A DNA stretch of 64,000 nucleotides. Source: Alphaproteobacteria bacterium (GTDB lineage: Bacteria > Planctomycetota > Phycisphaerae > UBA1845). Below, in pieces: positions 38,356 to 55,526 of the stretch. Numbering within the stretch: position 1 is the first letter of the stretch; every line of letters begins with the position of its first letter. Position numbers and translations under genes: made by a program. The stretch covers positions 62,001 to 126,000 of the forward strand of contig JANQQE010000032.1 of NCBI GenBank assembly GCA_028285105.1, read 5' to 3'. Below the pieces are notes generated by a model, which did not search any database, had not been told where the DNA came from, and saw only the letters and a list, made by a program, of their open reading frames with translations.

Positions 38356-39510
38356 CTAGTCTTCCGGTGTCTCGGATTTTTCTTCGGTAACCGGTTTGGA
38401 TGGATCGAACGGCTCTTCTTCTTTTGGCAATGGGCCGAGTTCTTCGCTTCGTGCCAGGGTCAACTCGACGTCGATGTGCTCAGCCCCGCGAAGCAATCGC
38501 ACGCTGACCCGCTCGCCGGCGGGCACCATGTAGAGGGCTTTGACCAACTGCCCGAAGTGCTTGATCGGCTGCTCGTTGATCCGGACAATCCAGTCGCCTG
38601 GTTGCGCGCCAGCCTCCCGAATCGGCGACGGGTCGGCGGACGACAGAATTGCAACGCCTTTTTCAACTTTTGGATCAACCGTCATTCCCAACCAGCCGCG
38701 ATGAAATGTTTTGCCTTGCTTGAGATCTTCAGCAATCTCGCTCACACGCTCGCCCGGGACCGCGAAACCAACGCCAGCATCGTAGAATTCTATCCCTGCA
38801 AGTTCGCCCGGACGCTGGGCCATCGGTACGCAAATGCCAAGGACGTACCCGGATGAATCCAATAGGGGACCGCCATAGTTGGCAGGCGAAAGTTTCGCGT
38901 CGGTTTGAATGGCATTGCCCATCATTCGGTTGACCGCACTGACGATGCCAACGCTGGTCATCGGTCTGGACCCGCCGAATCCCATGCCCATCGCGATTGC
39001 GGTCTGACCCGGTCGAATTTGTTCATCAGGAACCCAGTTGGGCGTGGGCAGGTCGGTTGCGTCAATCTTCAAAAGCGTGAGCTTACGGACGCGATCGCGT
39101 GCGACGATGTCAGCCGTCATCTGCCTGCCGTCGGCGAGTGCGACCGTCACAATCGAAGGGTCGCGCACAAAGTTGAAGCTGCTGGTCAAAACAAGTCCGT
39201 CGGACGAATAGACGATGCCCGTCGTCGGACCGTCAGCCACCATGAACGTCGAACCGGGGTTGTCGCGAAATTGGTTCGGGTTTTCGTCGTCTTCGGAGGC
39301 GAGCAACTGGTCGAGCGGTTGAACGCCGCCGACGGTTTCGACGCGCACGACGAATGGCGTGGCTTTTTCGATTGCTCGCTTGACCAACTCGGTTGCACCG
39401 TCTGTCGCCTTCACGGTTGGTTCTGATGCGAGCAGCGTTGAAGGCGCGAAAACCACGATCAAGGCAAACAAATATTGGCATTGAAATTGCACTAACAAGA
39501 ATCTCTTCAT
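38356..39510 (-). CDS. Trypsin/PDZ protein with lost catalytic triad (pseudo-DegP)
   Basis: A 384-residue exported protein (signal LFALIVVFAPSTLLAS) with a DegP-like chymotrypsin fold followed by one PDZ domain (about 275-360: RGWLGMTVDP, GDWIVRINEQPIKHFGQLV). The protease fold is clear (GLVLTSS, ADGRQMTADIVARD, QTDAKLSPANYGGPLLD, GVGFAVPGERV). All three catalytic positions are changed when aligned to DegP: His to Phe (TSSFNF), Asp to Lys (RDRVRKLTLL) and Ser to Tyr (NYGG). It should therefore bind peptides but not cut. The ATG has a strong GGAGGAG five bases upstream and overlaps the previous gene by ATGA. The acidic, Pro/Glu-rich tail is disordered. It is the last gene of the long operon. 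Confidence 0.88.
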   Translation of the reverse strand: MKRFLLVQFQCQYLFALIVVFAPSTLLASEPTVKATDGATELVKRAIEKATPFVVRVETVGGVQPLDQLLASEDDENPNQFRDNPGSTFMVADGPTTGIVYSSDGLVLTSSFNFVRDPSIVTVALADGRQMTADIVARDRVRKLTLLKIDATDLPTPNWVPDEQIRPGQTAIAMGMGFGGSRPMTSVGIVSAVNRMMGNAIQTDAKLSPANYGGPLLDSSGYVLGICVPMAQRPGELAGIEFYDAGVGFAVPGERVSEIAEDLKQGKTFHRGWLGMTVDPKVEKGVAILSSADPSPIREAGAQPGDWIVRINEQPIKHFGQLVKALYMVPAGERVSVRLLRGAEHIDVELTLARSEELGPLPKEEEPFDPSKPVTEEKSETPED

Positions 39511-42170
39511 TTGGGCTCCTCCAATTCAATGCGGATTTTCTTGACTTTTTCGCCGCGCAAGACCGTCAGTTCGAGCGTGTCGCCCGGTTCGCAGGCGTCG
39601 ATGATGCGTTCGAGCGCTTTAAGCTTAGCGATGGGCCGGCCATTGGCGCCGATGATCAGGTCGTCTTTGCGTATGCCCGCTTTCGCAGCTGGCGAACGAC
39701 GCCGAACACGCTCGACGAACACCGGATTCGATCGGTAGCCAAGCTCAAAGAATCGAATGCCGTGGTAAACGTCACGATTCACCGCGGGCGTCTCGTTGTC
39801 TGTCCCGCTTGCGTTTGAAAGAAACTCAACGAGAACCCGATTCGGAATCGCATAGTTCAACTGCGTATGTGTGAAGCGCGATTCCACACCACGACCCACG
39901 AGTCCGACGAGGTTGCCCGCACTTTCCACCACTGCCCCACCAGCAAATCCCGGTGCACTTGTGATCGCATCGATGACCAGTACATCGCCACGATATGGAA
40001 AGTCCTGCGTGCCTCTCGTGGCATCCAGTTTCGTCGTGCCGCAATAAACCCCGCTCGAAAGCGAAATATGTTCACCTTTGTCAGCCACTTTGAACGGATT
40101 CCCACCTGCAAAAACGGATTGTCCGATCGAAAGCTCGGGAGTCGCATTCAGATCGAAACAATCATAAGCAGCCTCGTCAATCGTGCTGTCATCATTTAAG
40201 TTCGTCGGAGTCAGTTGTACGAGGGCCAATTGCAAGTCGCGATCGGCATGAACGATTTCAACGTGGCGGGCAGTTCCGTCGTAGAGATACGCACGAACAT
40301 TCGGCGAATTCAACAGTCCCGAATCGACCGTAAGCACCAAGCCGTTCGTCGAAATCAGCACACCGCAACCGTATCCTTCACTTCGCCCCACACGGGCGCC
40401 GATCAGTTTGACGACGCGGCGGGCGACATGGTCAAAGACGTGAGTGGCCAACGTCGTCGGAATATTCTTCACGCACTTGTTGGGTTGCGCGGGTGATTCG
40501 TGTGAAGCGTTATTCTTCTGACCATCGATGACGATCGATTGTTTTCCAAGTTCAGACTCAACGGACAAGCCAAGCGGCCAACCTATTTTGTCGGCAAGGG
40601 TCAAACTGACGAACTCTCGCGTGGGTGTGTCGGTGGCAACGATGCGTCGCAGCGCCCCACTCTTTGCGTCAAAACCCAGTTTGATCGTGGCGTGTTCGTC
40701 AAGCGATGCGGTGATGCATTCCAATAGTGTCGATTGCGAAATCCCGTTCGAGTCGATGTCGAGCAGGGCGTCGGCACCGCAGTGTTCAAACACGCCAGCC
40801 ACTCTGTTGGGATTCGACACAATCAGTCGATCCTGCAAGAAGGCCCGCGCCCGAAACGCGAGGTCCATTGTAGTTGGCAACGGCACGCCGTCGGAATCCG
40901 CAGACAGTATGCCATCGATTTGCTGCACCTTGATGGTTCCGGATTTGTTCTCGATTGGCGTCCAGGTCATTCTGGCATCGCTTGATGCAGCCACTTCGTA
41001 CTTGACGATTTCGTCGCCTTCTGTGACATGACTCTCGGGCCACGACATCGATTCCGGCGAGTCGAGCGTATCGCCAGCCGACTTTCGGAATCGTTCGATC
41101 ACGCGTTCAACCGCGCGCCCGACGACACCGAGATCGGGTTCAAATGGTTTCTTGGTCTTGATTTGGACGCCTTCGGTGCGGGTCATGCGATGATGGATTT
41201 CACCGTTGGCATCGCGAAAACTCAGTGCAACCGGCCAATCTCCAGGCAAGGTTCCCAGTACACTTGCAAAATGGTTTGCTGACTCGATCGGTTGGTTGGC
41301 GAAACGCAGCAGTTCATCGCCCGGACGCACACCGACGTTCCATGCAGGACCGTCCTCGTAGAGTTCGATGAAGATCACCCCGGCATCGCGATCGCGCACG
41401 GTGGCTTGGATGGTGCCATGTTCGACGAGCAAGCCCGCTCGCATGCCGGGAATGAACGGTTTGATCTGGTTGGCGGTGATGGCGTAACCGAGACCGACGT
41501 TGACCCGGCCTCTCATCGACACGGAGATTCGCCCGTTGATGCCGATGACGTCGCCCGCCAGGTTGAACAGCGGTCCACCCGAATTGCCGGGATTGATGGC
41601 GGTATCAACCTGAATGCAATCGGAATAAAGCAATACATCGCCCGAACCGTATTGGTAGCGGTGAATTCCGCTGACGATGCCCGATGTCACTGTCGGGGCG
41701 TAATCATCAGACAGTAGAAACGGATTTCCCATCGCGATCGCGGTGTCGCCCACGCGCACATTGTCGGAATCGCCGAGCTTTGAATAAGGGAACGCCTCAC
41801 GCCCGGAGAGTTTGAACATCGCAACATCACCGCCCGGATCGATTCCCAACACTTGAAGCGGGTAAAGCTCGCCATCCGACAATCCACCGAAACCCGATCG
41901 CGATTCGATCATCGCCTCAACGACGTGGAAATTCGTCAGGCCATATCCTTCGGGGCTGATGATGACACCGCTGCCGCCACCGCGTTCGTCCTCGTCGAAG
42001 ATGCAGACGACCGACGGTGCGACTTTCTCGACGACTGCAATGCGGGCATACTCGGCGCGCTCTGCCAGTTCGATCGGCGTGGGTTGCGATGCCTTGACAT
42101 CGGGCGCCGATGCGAACTGAAACGTGGCGAAAACGATGGAAAGTGCAGCTATTCGGTAGGCGTTTGCGAT
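39507..42170 (-). CDS. Tandem trypsin-PDZ serine protease (DegP/HtrA-like), one active and one degenerate protease domain; proposed ATC start
   Basis: An 887-residue exported protein made of protease 1, PDZ 1, a linker domain, protease 2 and PDZ 2. Protease 1 has a full triad: His in GLTNFHVVEAM, Asp in DPGGDVAMFKL, Ser in NPGNSGGPLF. Protease 2 is degenerate: aligned to DegP its His, Asp and Ser positions are Ser (LTVDSGLL), Gln (DLQLALVQL) and Ala (PGFAGGAV). The first ATG, at 41912, would lose the signal peptide and the active His. The open frame extends to a stop at 42198 with no ATG, GTG or TTG before the signal peptide. An ATC at 42168-42170, with AGGAG seven bases upstream, gives (M)ANAYRIAALSIVFATFQFASA. 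It ends ATGA into the next gene. Confidence 0.85.
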   Translation of the reverse strand: MANAYRIAALSIVFATFQFASAPDVKASQPTPIELAERAEYARIAVVEKVAPSVVCIFDEDERGGGSGVIISPEGYGLTNFHVVEAMIESRSGFGGLSDGELYPLQVLGIDPGGDVAMFKLSGREAFPYSKLGDSDNVRVGDTAIAMGNPFLLSDDYAPTVTSGIVSGIHRYQYGSGDVLLYSDCIQVDTAINPGNSGGPLFNLAGDVIGINGRISVSMRGRVNVGLGYAITANQIKPFIPGMRAGLLVEHGTIQATVRDRDAGVIFIELYEDGPAWNVGVRPGDELLRFANQPIESANHFASVLGTLPGDWPVALSFRDANGEIHHRMTRTEGVQIKTKKPFEPDLGVVGRAVERVIERFRKSAGDTLDSPESMSWPESHVTEGDEIVKYEVAASSDARMTWTPIENKSGTIKVQQIDGILSADSDGVPLPTTMDLAFRARAFLQDRLIVSNPNRVAGVFEHCGADALLDIDSNGISQSTLLECITASLDEHATIKLGFDAKSGALRRIVATDTPTREFVSLTLADKIGWPLGLSVESELGKQSIVIDGQKNNASHESPAQPNKCVKNIPTTLATHVFDHVARRVVKLIGARVGRSEGYGCGVLISTNGLVLTVDSGLLNSPNVRAYLYDGTARHVEIVHADRDLQLALVQLTPTNLNDDSTIDEAAYDCFDLNATPELSIGQSVFAGGNPFKVADKGEHISLSSGVYCGTTKLDATRGTQDFPYRGDVLVIDAITSAPGFAGGAVVESAGNLVGLVGRGVESRFTHTQLNYAIPNRVLVEFLSNASGTDNETPAVNRDVYHGIRFFELGYRSNPVFVERVRRRSPAAKAGIRKDDLIIGANGRPIAKLKALERIIDACEPGDTLELTVLRGEKVKKIRIELEEPK

Positions 42171-42204
42171 TGCAAATCTCCTGCGTGGTGCGATTTCTTA
42201 GGTG

Positions 42205-43446
42205 TCAGCTTTGCGACTTGGGTTTGATTAGGCGGGCAGCAGCCCAGTTCGCCCAGTCGCCGATGTCGGCGTGGTCTGCCGTCTCGACGATCAACGTCAT
42301 CCATTCCGCGCCGGATACCGGCACGCTGATGGGCGTCGCCCGGTCCGCGCCGGTCATCGGTTCGCCATCGTACGCGACGCTTCCGTCGACGATCACCTTG
42401 AATCGCACGTGCCCGCCCGGCCGGACCCCATCGTCAATGCCGATGGTCGCGGCGAACGTTTCATACCTGCCCCCAAGCCGAAATTGAATCTCGCTGTGGG
42501 CGTGTACGCCGATGCCATGTTCGTATTCGACGGCATCCATCCGCATCGGTTGGTTGAAGACGTTCCGATTTTTGCGAAACATCCAACCGTTTTGAACCAT
42601 ACCCGATGACGTGTGACTGTGCGGTTCGAGCGAATCAAGATACACGATGCGGTCGCTGTTGAGAGTCAGCGATTCCACTTCGTCGAGCGAGCAACTGATG
42701 ACTTCGTCGAAATGGGTAGCAAACGAGATTAGGTCATCTTCGATCGATGAGAGCGAACCGGTGAAGACCTCGCCAGATGAGAGTTCCATCGATGCCGAAC
42801 TGCCAGGCGGTTCTTCGAGCGATGCGGCGAATACCAGGGCGAAGATTTTCTCTAGGCGAACGCGACGCGATCGATCATTGAATCGAAACTCACCGCTGGT
42901 TGGCCCCAATTCGAGGAGTATGCCGGGTATCTCGCGAACGCCGTCAGCCGCTTTCTCGCTGCGGGCGAGAAGAAGGTCTTCGCCAGGTCGAGCGCCGGTG
43001 AGTGCGCTTTCATATCGGGCAAGCACCTCGGGCGGCCAGCCTTCTTTTTCAAACGTAATCGCCCGCAAACTTGCGAACGGGAGTTTCAAGCGCTTTGCGA
43101 ATCGGGTCCGCATGATGAAACCATCGGGCATCGTTTCCAGAATGGCTCCGGAAACCCTGCCGCCACTTTTGGGAAACGCCAGGCAAGGGTCGGGGACGCG
43201 CGACGTGTCGAGACGGCGATGAAATCTGATTCTCGCTAGGTCCGCAAGCGAAGTGGTTCGTTCATCTCCGTCGGCTTTCCAGATGATCTCGCCAGGCGAA
43301 AGCGCTACAAACTCGCCAACCAACGAAGTGCCATCAACATCGGTTAATGTGACCTGTGCAGCAATGATGGTCAACGGAGCAAGGCCAACCATAGCGCACA
43401 AGACAACAGTTCGTTGCATTGATTGATGCATGTTCAAGCTTCTCAC
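42205..43446 (-). CDS. Exported NPCBM-domain protein
   Basis: A 413-residue exported protein (signal RTVVLCAMVGLAPLTIIAAQ). The N-terminal 230 residues are two or three small beta-rich repeats with a recurring pattern (TDVDGTSLVGEFVALSPGEI, PKSGGRVSGAILETMPDGFI, LSSGEVFTGSLSSIEDDLIS), which look like SH3-like or LSm-type sheets. The C-terminal 150 residues match the NPCBM/NEW2 carbohydrate-binding domain: GIGVHAHSEIQFRLGGRYETF, FKVIVDGSVAYDGEPM and a WANWAAARLIKP end. Binding to a cell-envelope glycan is likely. The GTG start (43444-43446) overlaps the TGA of the upstream gene (GTGA); an ATG at 43431 is an alternative. It is part of the long operon, 34 bp before the protease. Confidence 0.8.
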   Translation of the reverse strand: MRSLNMHQSMQRTVVLCAMVGLAPLTIIAAQVTLTDVDGTSLVGEFVALSPGEIIWKADGDERTTSLADLARIRFHRRLDTSRVPDPCLAFPKSGGRVSGAILETMPDGFIMRTRFAKRLKLPFASLRAITFEKEGWPPEVLARYESALTGARPGEDLLLARSEKAADGVREIPGILLELGPTSGEFRFNDRSRRVRLEKIFALVFAASLEEPPGSSASMELSSGEVFTGSLSSIEDDLISFATHFDEVISCSLDEVESLTLNSDRIVYLDSLEPHSHTSSGMVQNGWMFRKNRNVFNQPMRMDAVEYEHGIGVHAHSEIQFRLGGRYETFAATIGIDDGVRPGGHVRFKVIVDGSVAYDGEPMTGADRATPISVPVSGAEWMTLIVETADHADIGDWANWAAARLIKPKSQS

Positions 43447-44531
43447 GGTTGCTGCGCCAAAGATTCGTAGTATTGTTCAACCAACGCACGATATCGACCT
43501 GGAAACCGATCTCGCAGCACTTGCAGGACCTTGTCGCGATCGGCTTGCGGCATCGATCCCCAGGCGTCTCCGGGAGTGACTCGCCGGCCTGCTTTCTTGT
43601 TGGTCAATTGCGATCCCCCTTTGGGAGCCTGCGAATCCTCAGGTGGCGTTTCGGACGGATTCTGTTGCTGGGGATTGTTTTGCGGGTCCGATTGTTGTGA
43701 ACTCGAACTCGATTGCTGCTGTTCCTGTTTTTCGGTTTCTTCGATCAGTGTCTCGAGCAGTTCAATCACCCGGTTTTGTGCGTTCCGCGTCTGTTCGCCA
43801 GTGTCAGCCGCCGCCAGTCGCTTGTGGGAAAACGACATCAGGTCGGCGACTTCGCCGATGCTCTCGGGAACGCGGCGGGCGAGTTCGGCAAGCATCTGCT
43901 TTGCGGTCACGACGAATCGCGGCGATGCATCGGGAAACCGAACTAGAAAATCTTCAAGCGTTCGCTTGGCGTCATCGTGGTTGAGATTGTGCAGTTGGCA
44001 GTACCCGAGCATGTAGTACAGGTCAGGCTCGCCGAATGCGTGGGCGTTGTACGAATCGATATCCTTGACGACTTCGACGATGCGATCTTCGGCCTCGATC
44101 AGTTGTTCAGACTCCACCAGTTGACGGATGAGAAATAGTTCTGCGTTAAGGCGAATGTACGGGTCCTTGGATGATGTCAGCTTCTTCATTGACGCGATGT
44201 TCTCATCGGTTGCGCCGTCTTCGTCATATGCGTCGAGGGCGTCGCGAAATTCTGGCGATGCGAGAACGAGCACTGCGATCAGAAGCGATTCTGGGTCGGC
44301 TGCGTCAGCTTCGGGGTCTTGAGATTCTTCGCGATACTCCGCCACGGCATCTGAGATGATGGCCCGTGCCTTTTCGTCAACCGATTCAATCGACTCCGTA
44401 TGGGTCACGAGTCGATCGAAGAAGTCGTTCGCACCGTCATTGCTAGATTCGTTTTCGACGGCGAATGCAACCCCAACCGGCCAGCACATGGCAAGCAGCA
44501 GAGCGGCGGTGCGCGTTTGTTTGGAATGCAT
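43443..44531 (-). CDS. Exported helical protein with Gln/Ser-rich linker
   Basis: A 362-residue exported protein (signal TAALLLAMCWPVGVAFA). Residues about 30-255 are helical, TPR-like (YIRLNAELFLIRQLVESEQL, PDLYYMLGYCQLHNLNHDDA, KRTLEDFLVRFPDASPRF). A Gln/Ser/Asn/Pro-rich low-complexity linker covers about 265-320. The C-terminal 45 residues are WGSMPQADRDKVLQVLRDRF followed by PGRYRALVEQYYESLA, an amphipathic helix pair that I associate with proteins encoded beside planctomycete MoxR/VWA clusters. No enzyme motif is seen. It lies 5 bp after the coiled-coil gene and overlaps the NPCBM gene by GTGA. The role is unknown; a scaffold or regulator of the cluster is likely. Confidence 0.75.
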   Translation of the reverse strand: MHSKQTRTAALLLAMCWPVGVAFAVENESSNDGANDFFDRLVTHTESIESVDEKARAIISDAVAEYREESQDPEADAADPESLLIAVLVLASPEFRDALDAYDEDGATDENIASMKKLTSSKDPYIRLNAELFLIRQLVESEQLIEAEDRIVEVVKDIDSYNAHAFGEPDLYYMLGYCQLHNLNHDDAKRTLEDFLVRFPDASPRFVVTAKQMLAELARRVPESIGEVADLMSFSHKRLAAADTGEQTRNAQNRVIELLETLIEETEKQEQQQSSSSSQQSDPQNNPQQQNPSETPPEDSQAPKGGSQLTNKKAGRRVTPGDAWGSMPQADRDKVLQVLRDRFPGRYRALVEQYYESLAQQP

Positions 44532-44536
44532 CGTTG

Positions 44537-46567
44537 TTACCGTCCTTTCTCTGCCCGCGTTTGAATCTTTCGCGACATTTCTTCAAGCTTGGCCTGACGG
44601 TCAGCCGCCGTATTCAAAAGCCCCAGGATATCTTCCTTCGACTCCGAACGATCCTTGCGGGCTTCATCGGCAGTGGTGGTCTGGCGATTGATGCGCAGCT
44701 GCGAACTCTTGAGCATCTTCAACTCTGCCGACGTTGGGACCAGGGGGGCTGCTCCCGGCGCTCCACCACCCCCCCCGCCACCTTGCTTGTCCTTTTTCTT
44801 CTGCTCTTCGATCAGTTTCTTGAGCGATTCGAGCAGTTGGCTTAACTCGCGCTCGATGTCGGATTGCGTACCGGTGGTGATTGGTCCCAACTCATTGTTG
44901 GCAAGTCGATCAGCCACCATGTGCATGTCGGCTGTCAACTGCTCCATGATTTGGGGAAAAACGACGGTCGTACCATCTTCTTCCAGGAGGCGCACGCATG
45001 TTTGCGCCGACTTGGCCAGCTCGCTTTGACGCTTGGCCAGTTCATCGCACTTGAGGGTTTCCGCCCGCCGGAACAATTCCTTATCCATTTCGGAAAGCTT
45101 GAGCGTTTCGCTGTTGATTCCCTTTTGAATCTCCAGCATTTCCGAGAGGCGGGCTTGCAGCCCGCGGAGGATATCTTCCTTTTCTTCCTGGCGAAGTTGT
45201 TTTAGGGCTTCCTCAAGTTCACGCTGAGCCCGTTCCAATTCATCGAGGGCTTTGTCTTCTTCGAGGACGGCTTGCTCGACATCTTCCTCATCGAGTTCCT
45301 TGCCCGCATCCTCCATATGCTTGCCAGCCCGCTCGACGTTTTCATCGCCCGGGAGCGGTTTGTCTTCGGGCGATTGTTTCGATTCATTCTCGCCTTGTTG
45401 CTGCTTACCCTGATCTTGTTCCTGTCCCCGCTGTTGCTTACCGTCTTGTTGCTTGCCCTTGTTATCCTTGGGTTTGCCCTTACCGCCTTGCTTCGATTGC
45501 ATTTTTTGGGCGAGTTTCTTGGTGCGGTCAGAGAGATTCCGTTGCGCATCGCCTGACTTGCTGGCGTCGCGTTTTTCTTCGAGTTCCTTCTTGGCTTCTT
45601 CGAGGCGGTGGAGAGCGCGCTTCAACTCTTCCTTTGCTTCGTCCTGAGTTTTCTTCGCATCGCTCTTTTCGTTAGGCTCTGACTCATCCGACTCTTCGCC
45701 GCTCGGACTGTCGCCTGGTTTGTTGTCTGATTTTTTGCCATCGGAGGGCTTCATTTTCTCCGAAGCTTCCTTCAAATCCTTCGACGCTTCGTCGAGTTGG
45801 TCGGCGGCTTCTTTGTTGTCGGAATCCTTGTCGCTCTCATCGGAATTGGGTGTCAGCGATTTGCTGATATCTTCAACTTCCTTGCTGAGTTTTTCGGTCT
45901 GATCGCTCAGTTCTGATTGCGACTTGGCGTTCTTTTTATTCTGCGCCTGATCGGAGGAATCTGATTTTTCCATTTGCTTCTGCAAATCCTGCTGCTTGTC
46001 GAGAAGCTGCCTGGCTTTCTTGATCGCCGCATCGACCTGTTTCGCCGCCCGGGCGGCGCGGAGTGCGTCGGTGGCTTTTTGCCGCTGCTCCTTCTGTTCT
46101 TCGATGAGCGTTTTCAATTCGCGCTTGGCCTCGCGCAATCGCTCCATCCGCTCCTTGCGTTCCAAGTCGTTGGGGTCCTGATCGAGCAGCACCATCAGGA
46201 TTCTCTCGAAATCCTTTACCAATAGATCCTGATCGTCTGCCGCCCGGTTGAGTTCCTTCGACGCCTCAAGCGCCGAAACCAACCGCTCCACTCGATCCTT
46301 AACTTCCAACTCGCCCGTACGCGAAAGCGCTTCGCCAAGCTTAGCCGCGTTCTCGGGTTCGACCTCTGCAAGCTTCTCGCGCAGGCGGAACATGTGTTCT
46401 TCCAGCCGCGACAAACGATCGAGAATCATCTGCTGCTTCGTTGCAAGCGCATTGACCGGCTTATCGCCACCCGCCTGCTGCCCAAAAACATCGCCAGCCA
46501 GCGACATCAGGATCAGCGTCACAATCACGCAACCGATGCAACTAATCTTTGTTTTGTTTGAAAGCAT
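44537..46567 (-). CDS. Exported, highly charged coiled-coil protein
   Basis: A 676-residue protein with a signal or anchor helix (ISCIGCVIVTLILMSLAGDVFG) followed by almost continuous coiled coil. Heptad stretches run at about 25-170 (MILDRLSRLEEHMFRLREKL, ERMERLREAKRELKTLIEEQ) and again at about 280-560. The middle is extremely Lys/Glu/Gln/Asp-rich (for example GKQQDGKQQRGQEQDQGKQQ). A Gly-rich GGGGGGGAPGAAP segment comes near the C-terminus. It resembles the C-terminal disordered region of DUF4175-type proteins, and the upstream gene is DUF4175-like. I chose the ATG at 46567, nine bases after GGGAAAG; an ATG at 46576 and a TTG at 46627 overlapping the previous stop are alternatives. No enzymatic motif is seen. 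Confidence 0.78.
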   Translation of the reverse strand: MLSNKTKISCIGCVIVTLILMSLAGDVFGQQAGGDKPVNALATKQQMILDRLSRLEEHMFRLREKLAEVEPENAAKLGEALSRTGELEVKDRVERLVSALEASKELNRAADDQDLLVKDFERILMVLLDQDPNDLERKERMERLREAKRELKTLIEEQKEQRQKATDALRAARAAKQVDAAIKKARQLLDKQQDLQKQMEKSDSSDQAQNKKNAKSQSELSDQTEKLSKEVEDISKSLTPNSDESDKDSDNKEAADQLDEASKDLKEASEKMKPSDGKKSDNKPGDSPSGEESDESEPNEKSDAKKTQDEAKEELKRALHRLEEAKKELEEKRDASKSGDAQRNLSDRTKKLAQKMQSKQGGKGKPKDNKGKQQDGKQQRGQEQDQGKQQQGENESKQSPEDKPLPGDENVERAGKHMEDAGKELDEEDVEQAVLEEDKALDELERAQRELEEALKQLRQEEKEDILRGLQARLSEMLEIQKGINSETLKLSEMDKELFRRAETLKCDELAKRQSELAKSAQTCVRLLEEDGTTVVFPQIMEQLTADMHMVADRLANNELGPITTGTQSDIERELSQLLESLKKLIEEQKKKDKQGGGGGGGAPGAAPLVPTSAELKMLKSSQLRINRQTTTADEARKDRSESKEDILGLLNTAADRQAKLEEMSRKIQTRAEKGR

Positions 46568-46623
46568 GACGTTCATCTTTCCCAACGCTTGAATTCTAGA
46601 CCGCATGTGTGCGATTAACGAAT

Positions 46624-48732
46624 TCAATCATCGAATACGTCGTCGGTACCGGCTTCGATCTCCGCCCGTGTCTCGACGTTCAACTCTTCCTGCAACAGCA
46701 TGATTTCGCGCAGCAGCGACACCGTCTGCTGAAAGCCCTCCCACTTGAGCATATGATCCAAAATATCCTGCATCTCGTAGAGGATGCGTTCCTGCTGCGG
46801 ATCAACCTGTTTGGCGAGTTCCATTGACGGTTCCCGACCAAGTTGTCGCATCAGGTCTGCCGCCTGGCTCAGCTCTCTTGCTCCAAGATTCGTCAGCGGA
46901 GTAACAATGCCATCCTGCAACCGTTCGCGAACTTCGGGGTCGGCAAGCTGATTGATTTCCAACTCGCTAAGCACCTGGGCAAACTGTTGACGGATCACAT
47001 TCACCTGGGCCAGTATCTGTCTTTGACGTCGCTCCAGCGGTGCAAGTTGCAGTTCGAGTTCTTCGTTCTGTTTCGGATCGTTCATGTTCGACAACACCGT
47101 CAACATGCGTCGTCGCAACCGCTCCTGATTATCGACAGCCCGCTCAAACTGGCGGCGGAATTCCTGCTCGCGTCGGTTTAACTCCGCGATCAACTCTTCT
47201 GCCGTCACGATTCGAAACGTGATCGTTGTCGATTCGCCAACGCCCGGACCCGACACGGTGTTAAGATCCTGCGCTTTGGCAAATACCGCGACTTGCTCGC
47301 CGACGGCTGCGTCCGTTGATTCGACCAGCCAATCGAATTGTGTTGCATACTGCTGGGTCTGCGGGTTGAAATCATCAAGCGCCACAGAATGCTGCGAAGC
47401 ATCCGGATTGTCGATTCGGTAGAGCATGTTCGCCGACGCAATACCGAGATCGTCGCTCATTTCGATCTCAACCGGAATCTTCGCAGCCAGCGTCACCATG
47501 TTGCCAACCTGCGCGAATGAAAGCTTCACCTGGGGCGGGTTGTCTTTGAGCATGCGAATCGAAAAACGCACGGGTCTGACGTTGGCGAGTCCGTCAAGAT
47601 CGGTCATTTCAAAGTGAAGCGTCTGCGATTCGTTCGGCGACACCGACGCCGTCACCGTCATGTTCTCGGGCACGAGTTCGTTCAGCACTTTGGTCCCGTT
47701 CATCAATCGCGCGCTGGCGAGCGGCTTTGACGACAATGCCCGAATCGAGACGACGCTACCCGGATAGATTTCGCAAGCCCGCTGACCCGATGGCAGCGTA
47801 TACATGGCGATTCCCGTGTACGGCGGCGGTTCGATGCTAAGCGTTGCCTCTTCGATCGTCGGTCGTTCAGTCAGCCGCGTTTCAAACCAATCGGTCGTGT
47901 CGTCGCCACCGGTCAGATAGAAACGGACTTCCTCCTTGGCACGAGAAAACGTGTACCGAAATTCGCGCTGGCCCACACCGGTCATGTTCTCGCGGCCACT
48001 CTTGCCGGAGTTGGTCTCGAAGACAATCTCAACATTGCGCGGAACAACCGAGCCAGCCGGGATCGACGCCCGAATTTCCAGATCGTCGCCAATCGCACCG
48101 GTGATGATTCGATCGTCCGGTGCATCGACTACGATGGTGGTGCGTTTCGGCCAATGGACGTCGCGAAGCAGAATGTTGCGGTCCAGCCAGATGCCCATCT
48201 CTTGCGGCGATATGGCAAATGACGCCACCATCACCGACGCCACCGCGAACACCGCGAACGTCCCGCGACGGGCAGGTCTGGGCTGAATGATTTCATCGAA
48301 AGATAAGTCACGCGTGGCTTCAACGGCTTGGGCGACGACGGATTCCGCAAGTTGCGGCGAGTTCGAAGCAGCCGGCCCAACATTGCCACTTTCGAAATCG
48401 ACGGCTGAGATCAACAGCGAATCGAGTTGCGGAAATCGCCCTTCGATCACCCGAGCCACATCGCGCTCGTCGAATTGAAGTCGCTGCGGCTGGATCAGCT
48501 TTCGCCAGACAATCCAGCCAACCACAACCACCACAACACCCAATAAAGCGCAGCGCATATCCAACTGAAGGCGGAACGTGTAATCAATGAAAAACTGAAT
48601 CGACAAAATCGCCAGCAAGGCGCCGGCAACCACACCCGCACCGACCATCGCCCGGTTCATGCGCAAGCGCTTGACCACGTGCGTGAGGCGCCGAAACACC
48701 TGCTGTCGAAATGTCGATTGGTTCGTCGTCAT
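46624..48732 (-). CDS. DUF4175-like membrane protein
   Basis: A 702-residue inner-membrane protein. Two helices open it (about residues 29-50, MVGAGVVAGALLAILSIQFF, and 60-80, ALLGVVVVVVGWIVW), a third lies near 160-180 (GTFAVFAVASVMVASFAIS), and a long periplasmic part follows. That part has beta-rich, Ig-like blocks (TIEEATLSIEPPPYTGIAMY is the characteristic PPPYTG motif of this family; RPVRFSIRMLKDNPPQVKLS) and a C-terminal coiled coil (RREQEFRRQFERAVDNQERL). The family is uncharacterised, often adjacent to MoxR/VWA genes in Planctomycetota. I chose the ATG at 48732, preceded by a TTG at 48735. It follows the VWA gene by 21 bp. Confidence 0.82.
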   Translation of the reverse strand: MTTNQSTFRQQVFRRLTHVVKRLRMNRAMVGAGVVAGALLAILSIQFFIDYTFRLQLDMRCALLGVVVVVVGWIVWRKLIQPQRLQFDERDVARVIEGRFPQLDSLLISAVDFESGNVGPAASNSPQLAESVVAQAVEATRDLSFDEIIQPRPARRGTFAVFAVASVMVASFAISPQEMGIWLDRNILLRDVHWPKRTTIVVDAPDDRIITGAIGDDLEIRASIPAGSVVPRNVEIVFETNSGKSGRENMTGVGQREFRYTFSRAKEEVRFYLTGGDDTTDWFETRLTERPTIEEATLSIEPPPYTGIAMYTLPSGQRACEIYPGSVVSIRALSSKPLASARLMNGTKVLNELVPENMTVTASVSPNESQTLHFEMTDLDGLANVRPVRFSIRMLKDNPPQVKLSFAQVGNMVTLAAKIPVEIEMSDDLGIASANMLYRIDNPDASQHSVALDDFNPQTQQYATQFDWLVESTDAAVGEQVAVFAKAQDLNTVSGPGVGESTTITFRIVTAEELIAELNRREQEFRRQFERAVDNQERLRRRMLTVLSNMNDPKQNEELELQLAPLERRQRQILAQVNVIRQQFAQVLSELEINQLADPEVRERLQDGIVTPLTNLGARELSQAADLMRQLGREPSMELAKQVDPQQERILYEMQDILDHMLKWEGFQQTVSLLREIMLLQEELNVETRAEIEAGTDDVFDD

Positions 48733-48753
48733 CAAATTCGATTCAAATTATGC

Positions 48754-51258
48754 CTACAACAACCTGAAAATCTTTCGCATCGCCCACTCGGTACTCAATA
48801 ACCCCACCAGCAACAACAGCACCCACTTGTCATCCCACAAAGGCGTCGGGCGCGAGCGAATCGTCGTCGATTCGTGGCGATCCGGAATCTGATCGGGAAG
48901 GGCGGCTGCATCCTTCACATCATAATATCGCCCGCCTGATGTCAGTTCAGCCAGCGCCACCAATTGATCGCGGGCTAGCTGCGGTTGGAGGATTTCAAGA
49001 TTCGGTCGCGTCACCTGCACTTCGCGGCGAACAATGTCGTCGGTCAGGTCGCCATCCGGAATCGCCAGCGTCAGTTCGCAGCTGCCCGTGGTCGGCGGAA
49101 CGAAACGGGCTTCGTACCATCCGGGTCGATCGCTGATGCGAACCAGAGTGATCTTGCCGCGCTCGTCGCCAATGTGGTACTCAGCTTCGACGCTGGGGAT
49201 TTGCAAGGGCTGATACGCCCGGTCGAACAGGCGGGCTGACACGTTGATGACGTCTCCGAGTTGATAGGAATCGCGCTCCGTCAATATCGAACCGCGCTGA
49301 TTGCCGCCAACGAGTTTGCCCTCGACGACGTAGCGCACCAATTGCACCCAGAACTTGTTGAACACGCTGTCGCCATACGCTCGCCAGCGCCACGTGCTGT
49401 CGATCCCGAGATATGCCGACCGTCCCGAACCGGCGTACTGTGTCGCGAGTAGGATGTGGGCACCGAATCGATTCTCCATCCGTGGATCGCCATGACGCAT
49501 CAACACCGTCGCGACCGGTTTCTCTCGCAGCACCGGGAAGTGCCAATACACCGAACCTACGTTCGCCCAACTCAACTCTGCCGACGTGTCGCCCGGCAAC
49601 TTCAACACCGGGTGCCCTTGCGAAGATGACGGAACGATCAACGGATGGGAGACTTTTTGATAGTGACCGATCTGATTCAAGACCAAATCAGCATCGGGAT
49701 CGAATGTGACCGGCAGAATGCGCAGCAATTCCTTGGTCGCTTCGTCGCGGGCAAAGGCGGGTGCGTGCAATCGTGATGCCGCATAAACCAAACCGCCGCC
49801 GTGTCGCGTGACCAAACGATCCGCAAGTTCGACCCACTCTGACGTAAACTCCATCGGATCCGGGTCGAGCAAGATCATCGCGTCATATTCAAAAAGTTCC
49901 TCAGCCGTCGCCGGCAAGTGATCGATGATGACGTTGCCATCCCGCGCTGCATCGTCGTCAGCCGACTGAAGCCAGCAACTCACTTCAAACGTATCGTCGC
50001 GCTCCAGCAGCCGCGACACATAGCGGTATTCCCAACTCGGTGCCCCTGAAATCAGCAACACGCGAATCTTGTTGTCCACCACATTGACCGTGATCCTACG
50101 CTGGTTGTCGTCGCTGACGGATTCGTATTCGCTCACCGGAACTTGCACTTGATAAACGAATCGTCCGACCGATTGCTGGCGATGTTTGAATGTCAGCGGT
50201 TCGGCGGTGTTGTTTTCTGCCAGGGTGATTTCCTGCGAGGCGACGACGGTTCCGCTGTCGTTGACACCGTCTTGCTTTTCGACAAGTTCGACGGTGACGC
50301 GCTGACCGACCATGCCCTGGGCGCTGATCTGTGTAACGATTGCGAACGGGTCCTGCGTGAAGACATTGTCGGGTGCAATGACCTCAGCCACCCGAACGTT
50401 TTGCGGGGGGGCTGCATTGCCTACGCCGACGATGTGCAGCGGTACGTCGCGATCCTGAGCGAAACGGGCGATGTCTTCATATGAATCGCCGCGATTGATA
50501 CCCCCATCGGTCAAGAGAACAACACCAGCGATGGGCGAGCGATCCACCTTCTCGATGGCCTGTCGAACCGCTCTGCCGATGTTCGTCGTTGCACCGGTCG
50601 CGTGGAATTTCGTAGTCAGCCCCTCATCGCCAGCCGCATCGACAACGGGCGATTTCTTACCGGGTGAAGTTTCGTCGCTGGTTGCTGTTGCGTCGTTTTT
50701 TTCTGCCGATTCGCGCGCGGCGCGGATGGTGTATCGCGTCTCGACGTTTTCGGCGAACGTATGCACCTTGACGCGATTGTTCTTGGCCAGGTTCCGCAGG
50801 AATCGATGGTCGTCGCGCTGCAAGACTTCGTTGATGACTTCGCTGCGGCGCACCGGTTTTTCCGATGCGCCGGTTACCACTTCGGCGATTCGATCGAGGT
50901 CTTCGGTGCGTCGATAGCGGTCCTGCAAATCCATGCTTGCCGATGAATCAACCAATACAAGCGTGTACGAACTGACCCAACGGTGCAGGTAGGTCGCGAG
51001 GATCGGTTCAAATAGAATCGTCAAGAGGCAGAGCATGACGCAGATGCGCAGGGTGGCCATCACCATTCGCACGCGCATGCTCGCACCGATCCGGCCTTCC
51101 TTGCGATAGAACCAGACGATGGCGTAGACGAGCAGTGCGGCAACGATCATCGTCACCACCGTCCACCATCCGCTGGGCAGCGCCGCAAATTCAAGGCGAC
51201 GTTCGACCTGAATGTGATCGACCTGACCGACTAGATTGTTAATCAAACTCTTACTCAT
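48754..51258 (-). CDS. Membrane-anchored von Willebrand factor A protein with GATase-like domain
   Basis: An 834-residue inner-membrane protein. Two helices at about 33-51 and 70-90 (WWTVVTMIVAALLVYAIVWF, LRICVMLCLLTILFEPIL) frame a cytoplasmic loop. A VWA domain follows with the MIDAS motif DSSASMD (Asp104), a variable insertion, and the later VVLLTDGGINRGD Asp. After two Ig-like blocks comes a class-I-glutaminase-like fold (IRVLLISGAPSWEYRYVSRL, DAMILLDPDPMEF), with no catalytic Cys seen. A beta-rich part follows and a C-terminal membrane helix (WVLLLLVGLLSTEWAM) ends the chain. The likely partner is the MoxR ATPase of the same operon, which acts with VWA proteins in known systems. It sits 15 bp after the BatA-like gene. 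Confidence 0.88.
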   Translation of the reverse strand: MSKSLINNLVGQVDHIQVERRLEFAALPSGWWTVVTMIVAALLVYAIVWFYRKEGRIGASMRVRMVMATLRICVMLCLLTILFEPILATYLHRWVSSYTLVLVDSSASMDLQDRYRRTEDLDRIAEVVTGASEKPVRRSEVINEVLQRDDHRFLRNLAKNNRVKVHTFAENVETRYTIRAARESAEKNDATATSDETSPGKKSPVVDAAGDEGLTTKFHATGATTNIGRAVRQAIEKVDRSPIAGVVLLTDGGINRGDSYEDIARFAQDRDVPLHIVGVGNAAPPQNVRVAEVIAPDNVFTQDPFAIVTQISAQGMVGQRVTVELVEKQDGVNDSGTVVASQEITLAENNTAEPLTFKHRQQSVGRFVYQVQVPVSEYESVSDDNQRRITVNVVDNKIRVLLISGAPSWEYRYVSRLLERDDTFEVSCWLQSADDDAARDGNVIIDHLPATAEELFEYDAMILLDPDPMEFTSEWVELADRLVTRHGGGLVYAASRLHAPAFARDEATKELLRILPVTFDPDADLVLNQIGHYQKVSHPLIVPSSSQGHPVLKLPGDTSAELSWANVGSVYWHFPVLREKPVATVLMRHGDPRMENRFGAHILLATQYAGSGRSAYLGIDSTWRWRAYGDSVFNKFWVQLVRYVVEGKLVGGNQRGSILTERDSYQLGDVINVSARLFDRAYQPLQIPSVEAEYHIGDERGKITLVRISDRPGWYEARFVPPTTGSCELTLAIPDGDLTDDIVRREVQVTRPNLEILQPQLARDQLVALAELTSGGRYYDVKDAAALPDQIPDRHESTTIRSRPTPLWDDKWVLLLLVGLLSTEWAMRKIFRLL

Positions 51259-51273
51259 GCGTATTTCAAAGAG

Positions 51274-53550
51274 CTAGCCGCGCCCAAAGCGCCATGCCAA
51301 CATTTGCTCAACCATCAAAAGACCCATCGCCGCTACGAGCAGCATGGGCCAGAGTTCCTTCCGACCGCTGTCGGTTTCATCCGATGCCATCGCCACGCCG
51401 TCGATGTATTCGACCTGCAATCCATCGAGCGACTGTCGTAGGTCCTGTTCGGTGGCTGGCGTGAGGTCGCTCTCGCGGGCATCGACGTTGACCGCGAACC
51501 GACGGATCACGCTGCGTCCGTCGCGGCGATTCAACTGAAAACTGTAAATGCCGGATTGGTCGGTGTGTGGCCAATTGATCGCCATGCCGCTTCTGCCATC
51601 GGTCGAAGCGACGACTTCTTCATCTTCCTGCTGCGGATAACCGGGCAGGCGAAGGGTCGCGTGCGGTTCGTAGTCGGATGGATTCAATGCAAACGTCAGC
51701 GGTTTACCGACGGTGGTCGAGCGGTTGGCATCGCCCGCCCGTGCCAGGTGCTGCGTGACTTCGAGCATGCCGATGACGTAGCTGGCATCCCGCGCCCAAT
51801 CGTTCCACTCCAGATCGCACGACGACGTGAAGAGCAGCACCCGCCCGCGGCCGAACGTACGCTCCATGATCGCCGGTGTCGCTTCGTCATCGTCGTAGCG
51901 GGCGATGATCGTTGTCGATGCGCGGGCATCCGCCTCGTCATTTTCTTCATCGGGATCGAAGACAGCCGGTTCGGTCGAATAGTACTGTTGGAATTTCACG
52001 CGATCGAGGAACGGATTGACCTGTCCCGAAAACACGCGAACGACCGGATGCATAAAGTCGCTCTGAGCCAAATGCACGCCCGACTCCTTTGCCCGAACGA
52101 TCGACTGCAGCGATGCCGGCAGAAGCCCCTTGCCGTCGCGATACAGACTCGCGTTGTAAGCCAGCGGGTCGGATACTTGATCTCCGAGGAAAATCGCAAG
52201 TCCACCGCCTGCGAAAACAAAACGATGTAGATCGTCGGCGAACGGTTCACTAACGCGGTAAAGGTTGCAAAGGATCACGAGGTGATAGTCGTCGAGCGAT
52301 GCGCTATCGAGCGCCGATTCGTCGATCACATCAATCTGATTGCCACTGAACACGTCGCCTTCCGGACGAAGAGCCGTCGTCAGCAAATGCACTTCGTCAA
52401 GGTACGAATCGGTGGACGGTTCGCCGTTGACCACCAGCACGCGAACGCCGTCGGTGGCTTCGAGGGCGAGATACCGCGCGTCGTCGATCGGTAATCGGTC
52501 CGGGTCAGCCGACACCGTAATCGATGCATCGCCCGCCCGTTGAATCACCGTCGAAATCGGAGCGGCAACTTTCCCGCCGGCAGCAATCGAATCGGTCGGA
52601 ACCGAATTCGCACCCGATGTATCGCTCGCGATTTGCAGTTCAAGCGCATCCGCATCAAGCGTGCCAAAGTTGCGCACCGTCGCTTCAAGGTCTGCCGCCA
52701 CGCCGGTCACGACCTGCCGCTGCATGGATTGCAACTCGGTGATCGCCACGTTCTGAGGCGATTCGTCGCCCACATCGACCAGCACCACCCGCACATCGCG
52801 ATCATCGTTGGCCCAGTCGGTCAATTCGCCAGCCAGCGATGCCGACGCATTCGATCCTTCGCTGGCTGGTCCGTGGGCTGTTAACCAGTCCACTTCCTGA
52901 AAATCGCTGATGACATACAGCACGCAGCTGAGGATGCCATCGTCACCATCGAGCAACTTGCGCACGCTCGACATGCAGCGCTCCACCGAATGCGACCGCT
53001 GCGTGGGTTGCAACGCTTCGATGCGCGCGAGCAATAGCTCATATTGCCGATCGTCGAGGATCGCGCCGGCGACGATCGGTTTATCGGGTTCAGTGGTGTG
53101 AATGAGGGCTACCGTATCGTGCGGCGCATGATCGCGCAATCGCTGCAACAGATTGCGGATGCTCGTTTTCATGTCGTCGAACAGCGTCCGGTCGTTCGCT
53201 TGGTAACCCATGCTGAACGAATCGTCGAGCAGGAAAATGCGCTCGGTTCGCTGTGATCCCCCAAGCAGGGCTGCAACCCCCGAAGGTTGAAAGAAAGGCC
53301 GCGAAATCATAAGACCAATCAAGAAGATCGCGAGGCACCGTAGGGCTAGCAGAATGAGTTCTTCCATCCGCACCCGCTTGCGATTCTGTTTGTCGGCATC
53401 CATCAAGAACTGCATCGCCGCCCAACGAATGCGCTGAAACCGCCGGCGGGCAAGCAGGTGAATAATGATTGGCGCACCCATCGCTGCCGCCCCGCCCCAA
53501 AAGAGAGCGGGATTGACCAGGGCGGCTAACATGTGCGACGATATATTCAT
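51274..53550 (-). CDS. BatA/aerotolerance-type membrane protein with VWA domain
   Basis: A 758-residue inner-membrane protein. The N-terminal 80 residues match the BatA (aerotolerance) region: NPALFWGGAAAMGAPIIIHL, then LARRRFQRIRWAAMQFL and a second helix (LILLALRCLAIFLIGLMISR). A VWA domain follows with MIDAS DDSFSM. The long remainder has a GATase-like Rossmann block (VRVLVVNGEPSTDSY, GGGLAIFLGDQVS), Ig-like strands and a C-terminal helix (LWPMLLVAAMGLLMVEQML). The layout parallels the downstream VWA protein, so the two are probable ancient paralogues. I chose the ATG at 53550 behind TTTTGGA; a TTG at 53577 would overlap the DUF58 stop. It is in the MoxR operon. Confidence 0.87.
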   Translation of the reverse strand: MNISSHMLAALVNPALFWGGAAAMGAPIIIHLLARRRFQRIRWAAMQFLMDADKQNRKRVRMEELILLALRCLAIFLIGLMISRPFFQPSGVAALLGGSQRTERIFLLDDSFSMGYQANDRTLFDDMKTSIRNLLQRLRDHAPHDTVALIHTTEPDKPIVAGAILDDRQYELLLARIEALQPTQRSHSVERCMSSVRKLLDGDDGILSCVLYVISDFQEVDWLTAHGPASEGSNASASLAGELTDWANDDRDVRVVLVDVGDESPQNVAITELQSMQRQVVTGVAADLEATVRNFGTLDADALELQIASDTSGANSVPTDSIAAGGKVAAPISTVIQRAGDASITVSADPDRLPIDDARYLALEATDGVRVLVVNGEPSTDSYLDEVHLLTTALRPEGDVFSGNQIDVIDESALDSASLDDYHLVILCNLYRVSEPFADDLHRFVFAGGGLAIFLGDQVSDPLAYNASLYRDGKGLLPASLQSIVRAKESGVHLAQSDFMHPVVRVFSGQVNPFLDRVKFQQYYSTEPAVFDPDEENDEADARASTTIIARYDDDEATPAIMERTFGRGRVLLFTSSCDLEWNDWARDASYVIGMLEVTQHLARAGDANRSTTVGKPLTFALNPSDYEPHATLRLPGYPQQEDEEVVASTDGRSGMAINWPHTDQSGIYSFQLNRRDGRSVIRRFAVNVDARESDLTPATEQDLRQSLDGLQVEYIDGVAMASDETDSGRKELWPMLLVAAMGLLMVEQMLAWRFGRG

Positions 53551-53569
53551 AAGCGCTTCGTCCAAAAGG

Positions 53570-54487
53570 TTACGCAAGCGATCGCGTCTGGTGCATTCGA
53601 TTCGAAAGAAACCGCGTTAACGCCACATCGAGCGGGTCAGCCGTACTGATCTGGCAGTAGTCGATGCGGCTATTCAGGCAGATGCTCTGCACGTCGTGAA
53701 TAAATGCCCGCACCCGCTCCAGATACGCCGAACGCAGCGACTGCGGATCGGTCAGAATTTCGTCGGTCGTATGTTCGAGTCCTTCAAAAAGCGTTCGATC
53801 GCTGAACGGAAACTCGAGTTCGTCCTTGTCGAGTACGTGGAATACCATCACGTCGTGATGCCCGAATCGAAAGCGCTCCAACCCGTCCTTGAGTTCGTCG
53901 ATGTCGGTGAGCAGATCGGAAATCAACACAACCATGCTGCGTTTCGGGAGTTGGTCAGCCAGGTATCGAAAGAGTACCTTGGTTTGCGTTTCTTCGGTCG
54001 GTGCAGTTTGTTCGATCATCTCGACCATGTTGCGAAGTTGTGCCAGATTCGTGCTGACGGGCAGGTTGTTGCGGATCTCGTGGTCGAATAGCACAAGTCC
54101 GGCACCGTCCTGCTGCTTGACGATCAGGTACGCAAGACTGGCAGCGATGGTCGAGGCGTACTGCCATTTGTTCATGCGGTCTTCGACGTGATGTACCGGA
54201 TACTGCATTGACCCGCTCGCATCGAGCAGCAGGTATGCCCGCAAATTCGTTTCGACTTCGTACTGCTTGATGTAGAAACGGTCGGCTTTTGCGTAGACCC
54301 GCCAGTCGAGATGGCGCAGATCGTCTCCGGGCACGTACTCGCGATGGTCTGCGAATTCGATGGAAAACCCGCGGTAGGGGCTGCGATGCAAACCGCTTAG
54401 AAAACCTTCGACGACATGTCTCGCCCGAAGTTCCAACCGCGTAATCTTGTTGAGCGTCTCAGGTTGAAAGTAGTTTGTTGTAACCAT
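53570..54487 (-). CDS. DUF58-domain protein (VWA-like, MoxR-associated)
   Basis: A 305-residue cytoplasmic protein of the DUF58 family, the standard partner encoded beside moxR. The diagnostic motif lies in HREYVPGDDLRHLDWRVYAK followed by DRFYIKQYEVE. A VWA-like fold then carries LLLDASGSM with the MIDAS residues, and MVVLISDLLTDIDELKDGL later. DUF58 proteins are thought to be client-binding adaptors for MoxR ATPases; this is family knowledge, not proven here. The ATG at 54485-54487 has AAGGG five bases upstream and lies inside the moxR 3' end, a 29-base overlap that implies coupled translation. The BatA-like gene follows 19 bp after its stop. Confidence 0.93.
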   Translation of the reverse strand: MVTTNYFQPETLNKITRLELRARHVVEGFLSGLHRSPYRGFSIEFADHREYVPGDDLRHLDWRVYAKADRFYIKQYEVETNLRAYLLLDASGSMQYPVHHVEDRMNKWQYASTIAASLAYLIVKQQDGAGLVLFDHEIRNNLPVSTNLAQLRNMVEMIEQTAPTEETQTKVLFRYLADQLPKRSMVVLISDLLTDIDELKDGLERFRFGHHDVMVFHVLDKDELEFPFSDRTLFEGLEHTTDEILTDPQSLRSAYLERVRAFIHDVQSICLNSRIDYCQISTADPLDVALTRFLSNRMHQTRSLA

Positions 54488-55526
54488 CTTCGCCCTTCAA
54501 TACGGTTTCATTGGGATCGAGCATGTTCAGCAGATCTTCGATGACGCGGTCGGTTGAGTATCCGTCGGCGCTGGCAGAGAAGCTGGTAATGATGCGGTGT
54601 CGCAGCACCGGAAGCGCGCAGCGACGGATGTCTTCAAATGAAACGTGATGGCGACCGTGAAGCGCCGCGCGGGCTTTTCCGCCAAGCACCATCGCCTGCA
54701 CCGCACGCGGGCCGGCGCCCCAGGTCAGCATTTTGCGGACGACTTCGGGCGCGTCGGGTTCGTTGGGCCGGGTCATGCGGGCGAGGTCGAGTGCGTGTCG
54801 CATCACTTCCGGCGCGATGGGGATGCGTCGCACCGCATGCTGGAAGCGGATGATCTGCTCGCCGGTAAAGACCTGCTCGACGTTGATCTCGTTGTCGATG
54901 GTTGTCGTTTCGGCGATGCGCAATTCTTCTTCGTAGGTCGGGTACTTGACGAACACCTTGAACATGAAGCGGTCCTGCTGTGCTTCGGGAAGCGGATACG
55001 TTCCTTCCTGTTCGATGGGGTTCTGCGTTGCGAGAACGAAGAAGGGCGACGGGAGCGGATGCACGTTCGATCCGACGGTGACCTGCCGTTCCTGCATCGC
55101 TTCAAGCAGTGCAGCTTGTGTTTTGGGCGGCGTTCGGTTGATCTCGTCGGCAAGGATCACGTTTGCAAACACCGGACCGGGCAGGAATCGAAACGCACGT
55201 TCTCCGGTACTCTTGTCTTCCTGCATCACTTCGGTGCCGGTGATGTCCGAAGGCATCAGGTCAGGAGTGAACTGCACGCGATGAAACGAAAGCGCCAGAC
55301 ACCGCGCCAACGTCGAAATCATTAGCGTCTTCGCCAGACCCGGCACACCTTCGAGAATCACGTGCCCATTGGCGAACATCGCGACCATGAGCTGATCGAC
55401 GACGGCATCCTGCCCAACGATGATCTTGCCCAACTCGGAACGGATGCGATTGTATCCATCGGTCAATTCGCGGATCAGTTCGGCATCACCGGGCTGCGCG
55501 GGTACATTTTGCGGCGCTTCACTCAT
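54459..55526 (-). CDS. moxR: MoxR-family AAA+ ATPase
   Basis: Cytoplasmic AAA+ ATPase of the MoxR (AAA_3) family, a chaperone-like machine that matures partner proteins or their metal sites. The 355-residue protein has Walker A GVPGLAKT (60-67), DLMPSDITGTEV, Walker B VILADEINR, the family ERQVTVGSNVHPLPSPFFVL loop, sensor 1 ATQNPIEQEGTYPLPEAQQD and a C-terminal lid with GAGPRAVQAMV. AAGGA stands seven bases before the ATG. The 58-bp gap upstream is the largest break near the operon's centre and holds a 9-bp inverted repeat. Downstream, DUF58 overlaps by 29 bases, then the BatA-like and VWA proteins follow, which is the classical MoxR cluster order. Confidence 0.96.
   Translation of the reverse strand: MSEAPQNVPAQPGDAELIRELTDGYNRIRSELGKIIVGQDAVVDQLMVAMFANGHVILEGVPGLAKTLMISTLARCLALSFHRVQFTPDLMPSDITGTEVMQEDKSTGERAFRFLPGPVFANVILADEINRTPPKTQAALLEAMQERQVTVGSNVHPLPSPFFVLATQNPIEQEGTYPLPEAQQDRFMFKVFVKYPTYEEELRIAETTTIDNEINVEQVFTGEQIIRFQHAVRRIPIAPEVMRHALDLARMTRPNEPDAPEVVRKMLTWGAGPRAVQAMVLGGKARAALHGRHHVSFEDIRRCALPVLRHRIITSFSASADGYSTDRVIEDLLNMLDPNETVLKGEDGYNKLLST

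Follow-up and report, generated by a model that had tools for sequence, protein, structure and literature searches.

The gene for an HtrA-like, putatively periplasmic protease on the minus strand at 39507 to 42170 of the window (the whole stretch of DNA analyzed, 64,000 nucleotides) very likely initiates at AUC. The explanation that fits best, and in which confidence is high, is that translation starts at AUC 42170-42168 by means of the Shine-Dalgarno sequence AGGAGA; initiation there would be weak, and initiation factor 3 (IF3) would be expected to destabilize it. If the start throttles synthesis in this way, the weak AUC could let the cell restrain the protease through IF3. The features considered are as follows.

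39507 to 42170, minus strand: complete protease gene (887 codons and a stop codon), based on the open frame and on Pfam matches
41538 to 41975, minus strand: first trypsin-like domain (Trypsin_2, Pfam PF13365, residues 75 to 220 of P0001)
41925 to 41927, minus strand: codon of the catalytic His of the first domain (GLTNFHVV), upstream of the ATG at 41912
42090 to 42170, minus strand: signal-peptide-like N-terminus, MANAYRIAALSIVFATFQFASAPDVKA with ATC read as Met; the 3' limit is approximate
42168 to 42170, minus strand: ATC (AUC), very likely the start codon, invariant in four species
42177 to 42182, minus strand: Shine-Dalgarno sequence AGGAGA, 6 nt ahead of the ATC, with the same spacing in the four species
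42205 to 43446, minus strand: upstream gene with an NPCBM domain (Pfam PF08305), its stop 34 nt before the ATC
38356 to 39510, minus strand: downstream gene for a trypsin-like plus PDZ protein, its start overlapping the stop of the protease gene by 4 nt

The protease and its open frame

A single open frame of 896 codons extends over 39507-42197 on the minus strand. By Pfam matches, the encoded protein consists of an active trypsin-like domain, a linker, a degenerate trypsin-like domain and, C-terminal to the latter, a PDZ domain (PF13180, residues 824-892). The first domain is of the HtrA type with His, Asp and Ser, and matches DegP of Escherichia coli (E=1.2e-41). Orthologs in three other species are 75-77% identical in amino-acid sequence across almost all of their length, and the motifs LTNFHVV, DPGGDVAM and NPGNSGGPL are present in all four species, namely that of the window (genome G000), G001, G002 and G004. 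In the second trypsin-like domain (39507-40400), LTVDSGLL and GFAGGA take the place of the motifs with the catalytic His and Ser, respectively, in each of the four, and the only active-looking domain is therefore the first one.

The frame opens after an in-frame TAA at 42198-42200, and its first ATG is codon 96, at 41910-41912. The codons after the stop are GAA ATC GCA CCA CGC AGG AGA TTT GCA ATC GCA AAC GCC TAC CGA. The preliminary description had placed the ATG, the stop, the ATC at 42168-42170 and an AGGAG at these positions, and had located a signal peptide and the catalytic His upstream of the ATG at 41912. All of this was confirmed on the sequence, as was its claim that no ATG, GTG or TTG lies between the stop and the signal peptide; in fact, no such codon occurs in frame from the stop at 42198-42200 to the ATG at 41912. 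The AGGAG is at 42178-42182, seven bases upstream of the ATC, which is the same arrangement as AGGAGA followed by 6 nt.

The stretch upstream of the ATG at 41912 is clearly coding, judging from the four-way alignment, because 46 of the 56 residues directly before this ATG are identical in the four species. In the signal peptide, 3 of 29 residues are invariant, and a hydrophobic N-terminal core is seen in all four. This N-terminus resembles a Sec-type signal peptide and would be hydrophobic only with translation from or near the ATC. A start at the ATG at 41912 would cost the protease its His and its signal peptide. Gene finders generally accept only ATG, GTG and TTG. Callers limited to these codons would be expected to truncate the gene, because no such codon precedes 41912, and the signal peptide and, in this species, the active-site His would be lost.

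Conservation of the start site

The comparison covered the five species of the genus. The window lies on contig C25 of G000, a 4.8-Mb genome in 36 contigs; the relatives from the same genus are MAGs of Phycisphaerae (Planctomycetota), and at least three of the four genomes with the ATC start are MAGs. The preliminary description raised the case that relatives might start elsewhere and not conserve the ATC; when this was checked, the ATC was found in four of the five species. In these four, the hexamer and the codon of AGGAGA-N6-ATC are invariant. Most of the spacer (TTTGCA, CTCGCC, GTCACC and ATCGCA), the flanking bases and most of the signal peptide vary. Identity at 4-fold sites between pairs of species is 39-55%, i.e., divergence is near saturation, and the codon is the same in all four species for just 39 of the 231 invariant 4-fold residues. 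The species comparison thus gives good support to the ATC start.

The third base of the ATC is weak evidence when taken alone, since 12 of the 32 other invariant Ile residues of the protease are likewise ATC in all four species. The case therefore rests on the position of the codon, the Shine-Dalgarno sequence and the lack of alternatives. In none of the four species does a canonical codon occur after the stop and ahead of the hydrophobic core. In G002, a GTG/TTG pair occupies the first two residues of the core, and it is conceivable as an alternative start, without a Shine-Dalgarno sequence. The claim that the AGGAG is among the best in the window was upheld in part: the match is good but not exceptional, as, of the 141 open reading frame (ORF) pairs (G000 versus G002) in which an aligned canonical start has a Shine-Dalgarno match, 66 show one of at least 5 nt in G000.

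The canonical starts of these pairs are identical between G000 and G002 in 131 of 141 cases. Start codons are thus generally conserved, and the persistence of the ATC is as expected of a real start. The fifth species, G003 (68% identity), has ATG and GTG options and a longer intergenic stretch, which indicates that the ATC start probably arose within the genus. A canonical start could plausibly be placed in nearly all of the 66 other orthologs examined, made up of G003 and 65 further ones; two (L028 and L237) were not placed either way.

In the species of the window, a small hairpin, UUUGC-AAUC-GCAAA (42158-42177), is predicted with the ATC in its loop. The other three species have different bases at the paired positions, and the RNA around the start folded no better than shuffled sequences (z = 0.42 and -0.15), so that a special structure is not indicated.

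Comparison of G000 and G002 reading frames, and infC

When 1.36 Mb of G000 was set against 1.09 Mb of G002, 384 non-overlapping matched ORF pairs were obtained, a mechanical set that may include spurious ORFs and would miss noncanonical starts with a canonical codon nearby. No other pair in this set had a homologous extension before the first canonical codon as long as that of the protease. Alignments of 100 residues or more were available for 326 pairs, and among these the protease alone had a conserved Shine-Dalgarno sequence with an ATC, ATT, ATA or CTG that was not explained by a canonical start.

Where homology began ahead of the first canonical codon in other ORF pairs, most cases came down to overlap with the upstream gene or to a conserved leader followed by ATG, GTG or TTG. 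The remaining Shine-Dalgarno matches with ATC, ATT or CTG either adjoin an ATG (ATCGACATG, ATCATG and CTGATG) or lie deep in an ORF with other starts. An HNH-like ORF (C35:212196-212979) seemed to lack a start near its conserved core; its N-termini diverge, with no common near-start codon behind a Shine-Dalgarno sequence.

As a positive control, the same procedure was applied to the infC region and recovered infC. This gene starts at ATC behind an AAGGA-type Shine-Dalgarno sequence in all five species (G000:C32 at about 139740-139970, i.e., L053, and L051, L052, L054 and L055). An ATC is also present at the corresponding place in infC of G023, from another genus. In the literature library searched, no paper on planctomycete ATC starts was found.

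Proposed initiation mechanism and possible role of IF3

The AGGAGA 6 nt upstream would position the ribosome on AUC 42170-42168, and initiation would probably be assisted by ribosomes that terminate on the NPCBM gene, 34 nt ahead of the AUC. The ordinary initiator tRNA, with its CAU anticodon, would mispair with AUC at the third position, so that a protein beginning with formyl-Met and weak initiation would be expected. IF3 would then destabilize initiation complexes on the AUC, as it does on infC, while the weak start would be offset in part by the AGGAGA and by the closeness of the NPCBM gene's end. The predicted outcome is a protease that is scarce relative to its neighbors, at a level tied to IF3 activity.

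The textbook example of an IF3-repressed gene is infC. The suggestion of the preliminary description that the start codon limits synthesis, with IF3 as the agent, is plausible by analogy, because infC in these genomes shares the ATC start and IF3 repression of such starts has been published. Toxicity of the protease, also suggested there, is conjectural. In Streptomyces coelicolor, SigR translated from a GTC start decreased with extra IF3 and increased in fidelity mutants (PMC5472188). The infC gene of Streptomyces starts at ATC (PMC5472188). In Staphylococcus aureus, AUU and AUA starts gave about a tenth of the output of AUG in poor medium (PMC13009471).

The main rival to regulation is a merely inherited weak start. 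The AUC would be real but not regulatory, having arisen once in an ancestor and been tolerated and passed on, with the Shine-Dalgarno sequence and coupling to the NPCBM gene supplying enough protein. This is a serious possibility, not far short of even. The ATC is limited to one clade within the genus, the operon layout fits translational coupling, and canonical starts change slowly too, as the 131 of 141 identical starts indicate, so that persistence alone is no proof of selected weakness. However, the single-base change from ATC to ATG is absent in four lineages at near-saturated synonymous divergence, and infC retains its ATC for a known regulatory reason. That the AUC start of the protease is a selected device, which arose in one genus of uncultured Phycisphaerae and brings an envelope protease, along with infC, under the control of IF3, is put forward tentatively, as somewhat doubtful. 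If so, envelope proteolysis would follow initiation fidelity and the state of the ribosome.

Other explanations for the missing canonical start

Translation might begin at another noncanonical codon further upstream. The ATC would then encode an internal Ile, the AGG AGA an Arg pair, and the protein would begin with ...RRxxI. In favor of this, the open frame reaches a few codons further upstream than the AGGAGA, which is itself in frame as AGG AGA. However, the stop and the AGGAGA are only five codons apart in G000 and seven apart in G004, with no near-start codon in common, and with one codon kept at so few of the 4-fold residues (39/231) the invariant AGG AGA fits a Shine-Dalgarno sequence better. 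This explanation is considered very unlikely.

Production of the protease solely as a fusion to the NPCBM protein, via frameshifting or stop readthrough, is more improbable still. The two genes are close neighbors, and in G004 they share one frame, interrupted by a single TGA. In G000, however, the NPCBM stop (42205-42207) precedes the opening of the protease frame (42197), which leaves no frameshift that could join them; the layout of G001 and G002 is different again, and in a fusion the signal peptide would end up buried. An equally slight chance is given to a sequencing or assembly error, or to a decayed gene with a product made from the internal ATG at 41912. The 36 contigs of G000 and the three related MAGs are material in which single-base errors occur, but four separate assemblies agree. 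Moreover, the catalytic His and its flanks upstream of 41912 are almost invariant, the full-length frames are without stops, and a start at 41912 would strip the His and the signal peptide from an otherwise intact protease.

A special initiator tRNA with a GAU anticodon, for which nothing speaks but the ATC starts of two genes, merits practically no weight, as ARAGORN at the tRNA-search sites found one initiator-type CAU tRNA (with a 1-72 mispair and an anticodon stem containing three G-C pairs) and a single, elongator-like tRNA-Ile(GAT) in a list that is possibly incomplete.

Gene neighborhood and origin of the tandem form

The region 38356-55526 is a run of minus-strand genes, several of which overlap at their ends. 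It encodes a MoxR-type AAA ATPase and DUF58, BatA/VWA, VWA, TPR, NPCBM and trypsin-like proteins, and it resembles Bat/MoxR clusters. Two large genes, 44537-46627 and 46624-48735, had no Pfam family match. The NPCBM neighbor of the protease gene, which ends in QS-stop, ends likewise in other species. The downstream gene at 38356-39510 looks degenerate, with SPANYGGPLL for GNSGGPL and LTSSFNFV for LTNxHVV. These motifs suggest that a single active protease is accompanied by two pseudoproteases as partners.

The two halves of the protease, N-terminal and C-terminal, correspond to separate adjacent frames in most other genera; the orthologs listed for this comparison are G024:C30:19263-21892 and G007:C43:61846-64451. 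The tandem form is thus apparently a gene fusion in this genus.

Implications

To our knowledge, few noncanonical starts have been established experimentally in bacterial chromosomes. Here, comparison across species is enough to reveal a start whose omission from annotation would deprive the protease of the signal peptide and the catalytic His. The same comparison, combining a conserved Shine-Dalgarno sequence and near-start codon, the lack of a canonical start and infC as a check, could map IF3-discriminated genes clade by clade.

Comparison with known systems

With the HtrA/Deg proteases DegP and DegQ, the protein shares a first domain with His, Asp and Ser and a PDZ domain in the same chain. 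It is unlike them in having a second trypsin-like domain that lacks the catalytic His and Ser, a divergent linker, a PDZ domain placed after this second domain, and an AUC start.

Genes with noncanonical starts are already known (infC, pcnB, sigR, ccpN and cvfC1), and the Phycisphaerae protease adds a further case. The genes ccpN (AUA) and cvfC1 (AUU) of S. aureus are, like the protease gene, single chromosomal genes with a conserved ATN start and a good Shine-Dalgarno sequence, although their Shine-Dalgarno sequences are longer (PMC13009471). A conserved ATN-type start with a good Shine-Dalgarno sequence is also found in pcnB (AUU) of E. coli, as cited in PMC13009471. These three genes differ in having other functions and in being confirmed by ribosome profiling and/or reporters (PMC13009471).

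The sigR gene of Streptomyces shares with the protease gene a conserved noncanonical start and a strong Shine-Dalgarno sequence within an operon; it is a regulatory target gene whose operon partner must be in excess (PMC5472188). It differs in that the start is GTC and not ATC, the product is a sigma factor and not a protease, and IF3 control is experimental for sigR, whereas for the protease we infer it. Finally, infC, known for its ATT, ATC or ATA start and for autorepression by IF3, has, like the protease gene, an ATN-type near-start codon behind a clear Shine-Dalgarno sequence. In contrast to the protease gene, infC encodes IF3 itself and is under direct feedback; the protease could be a target only.
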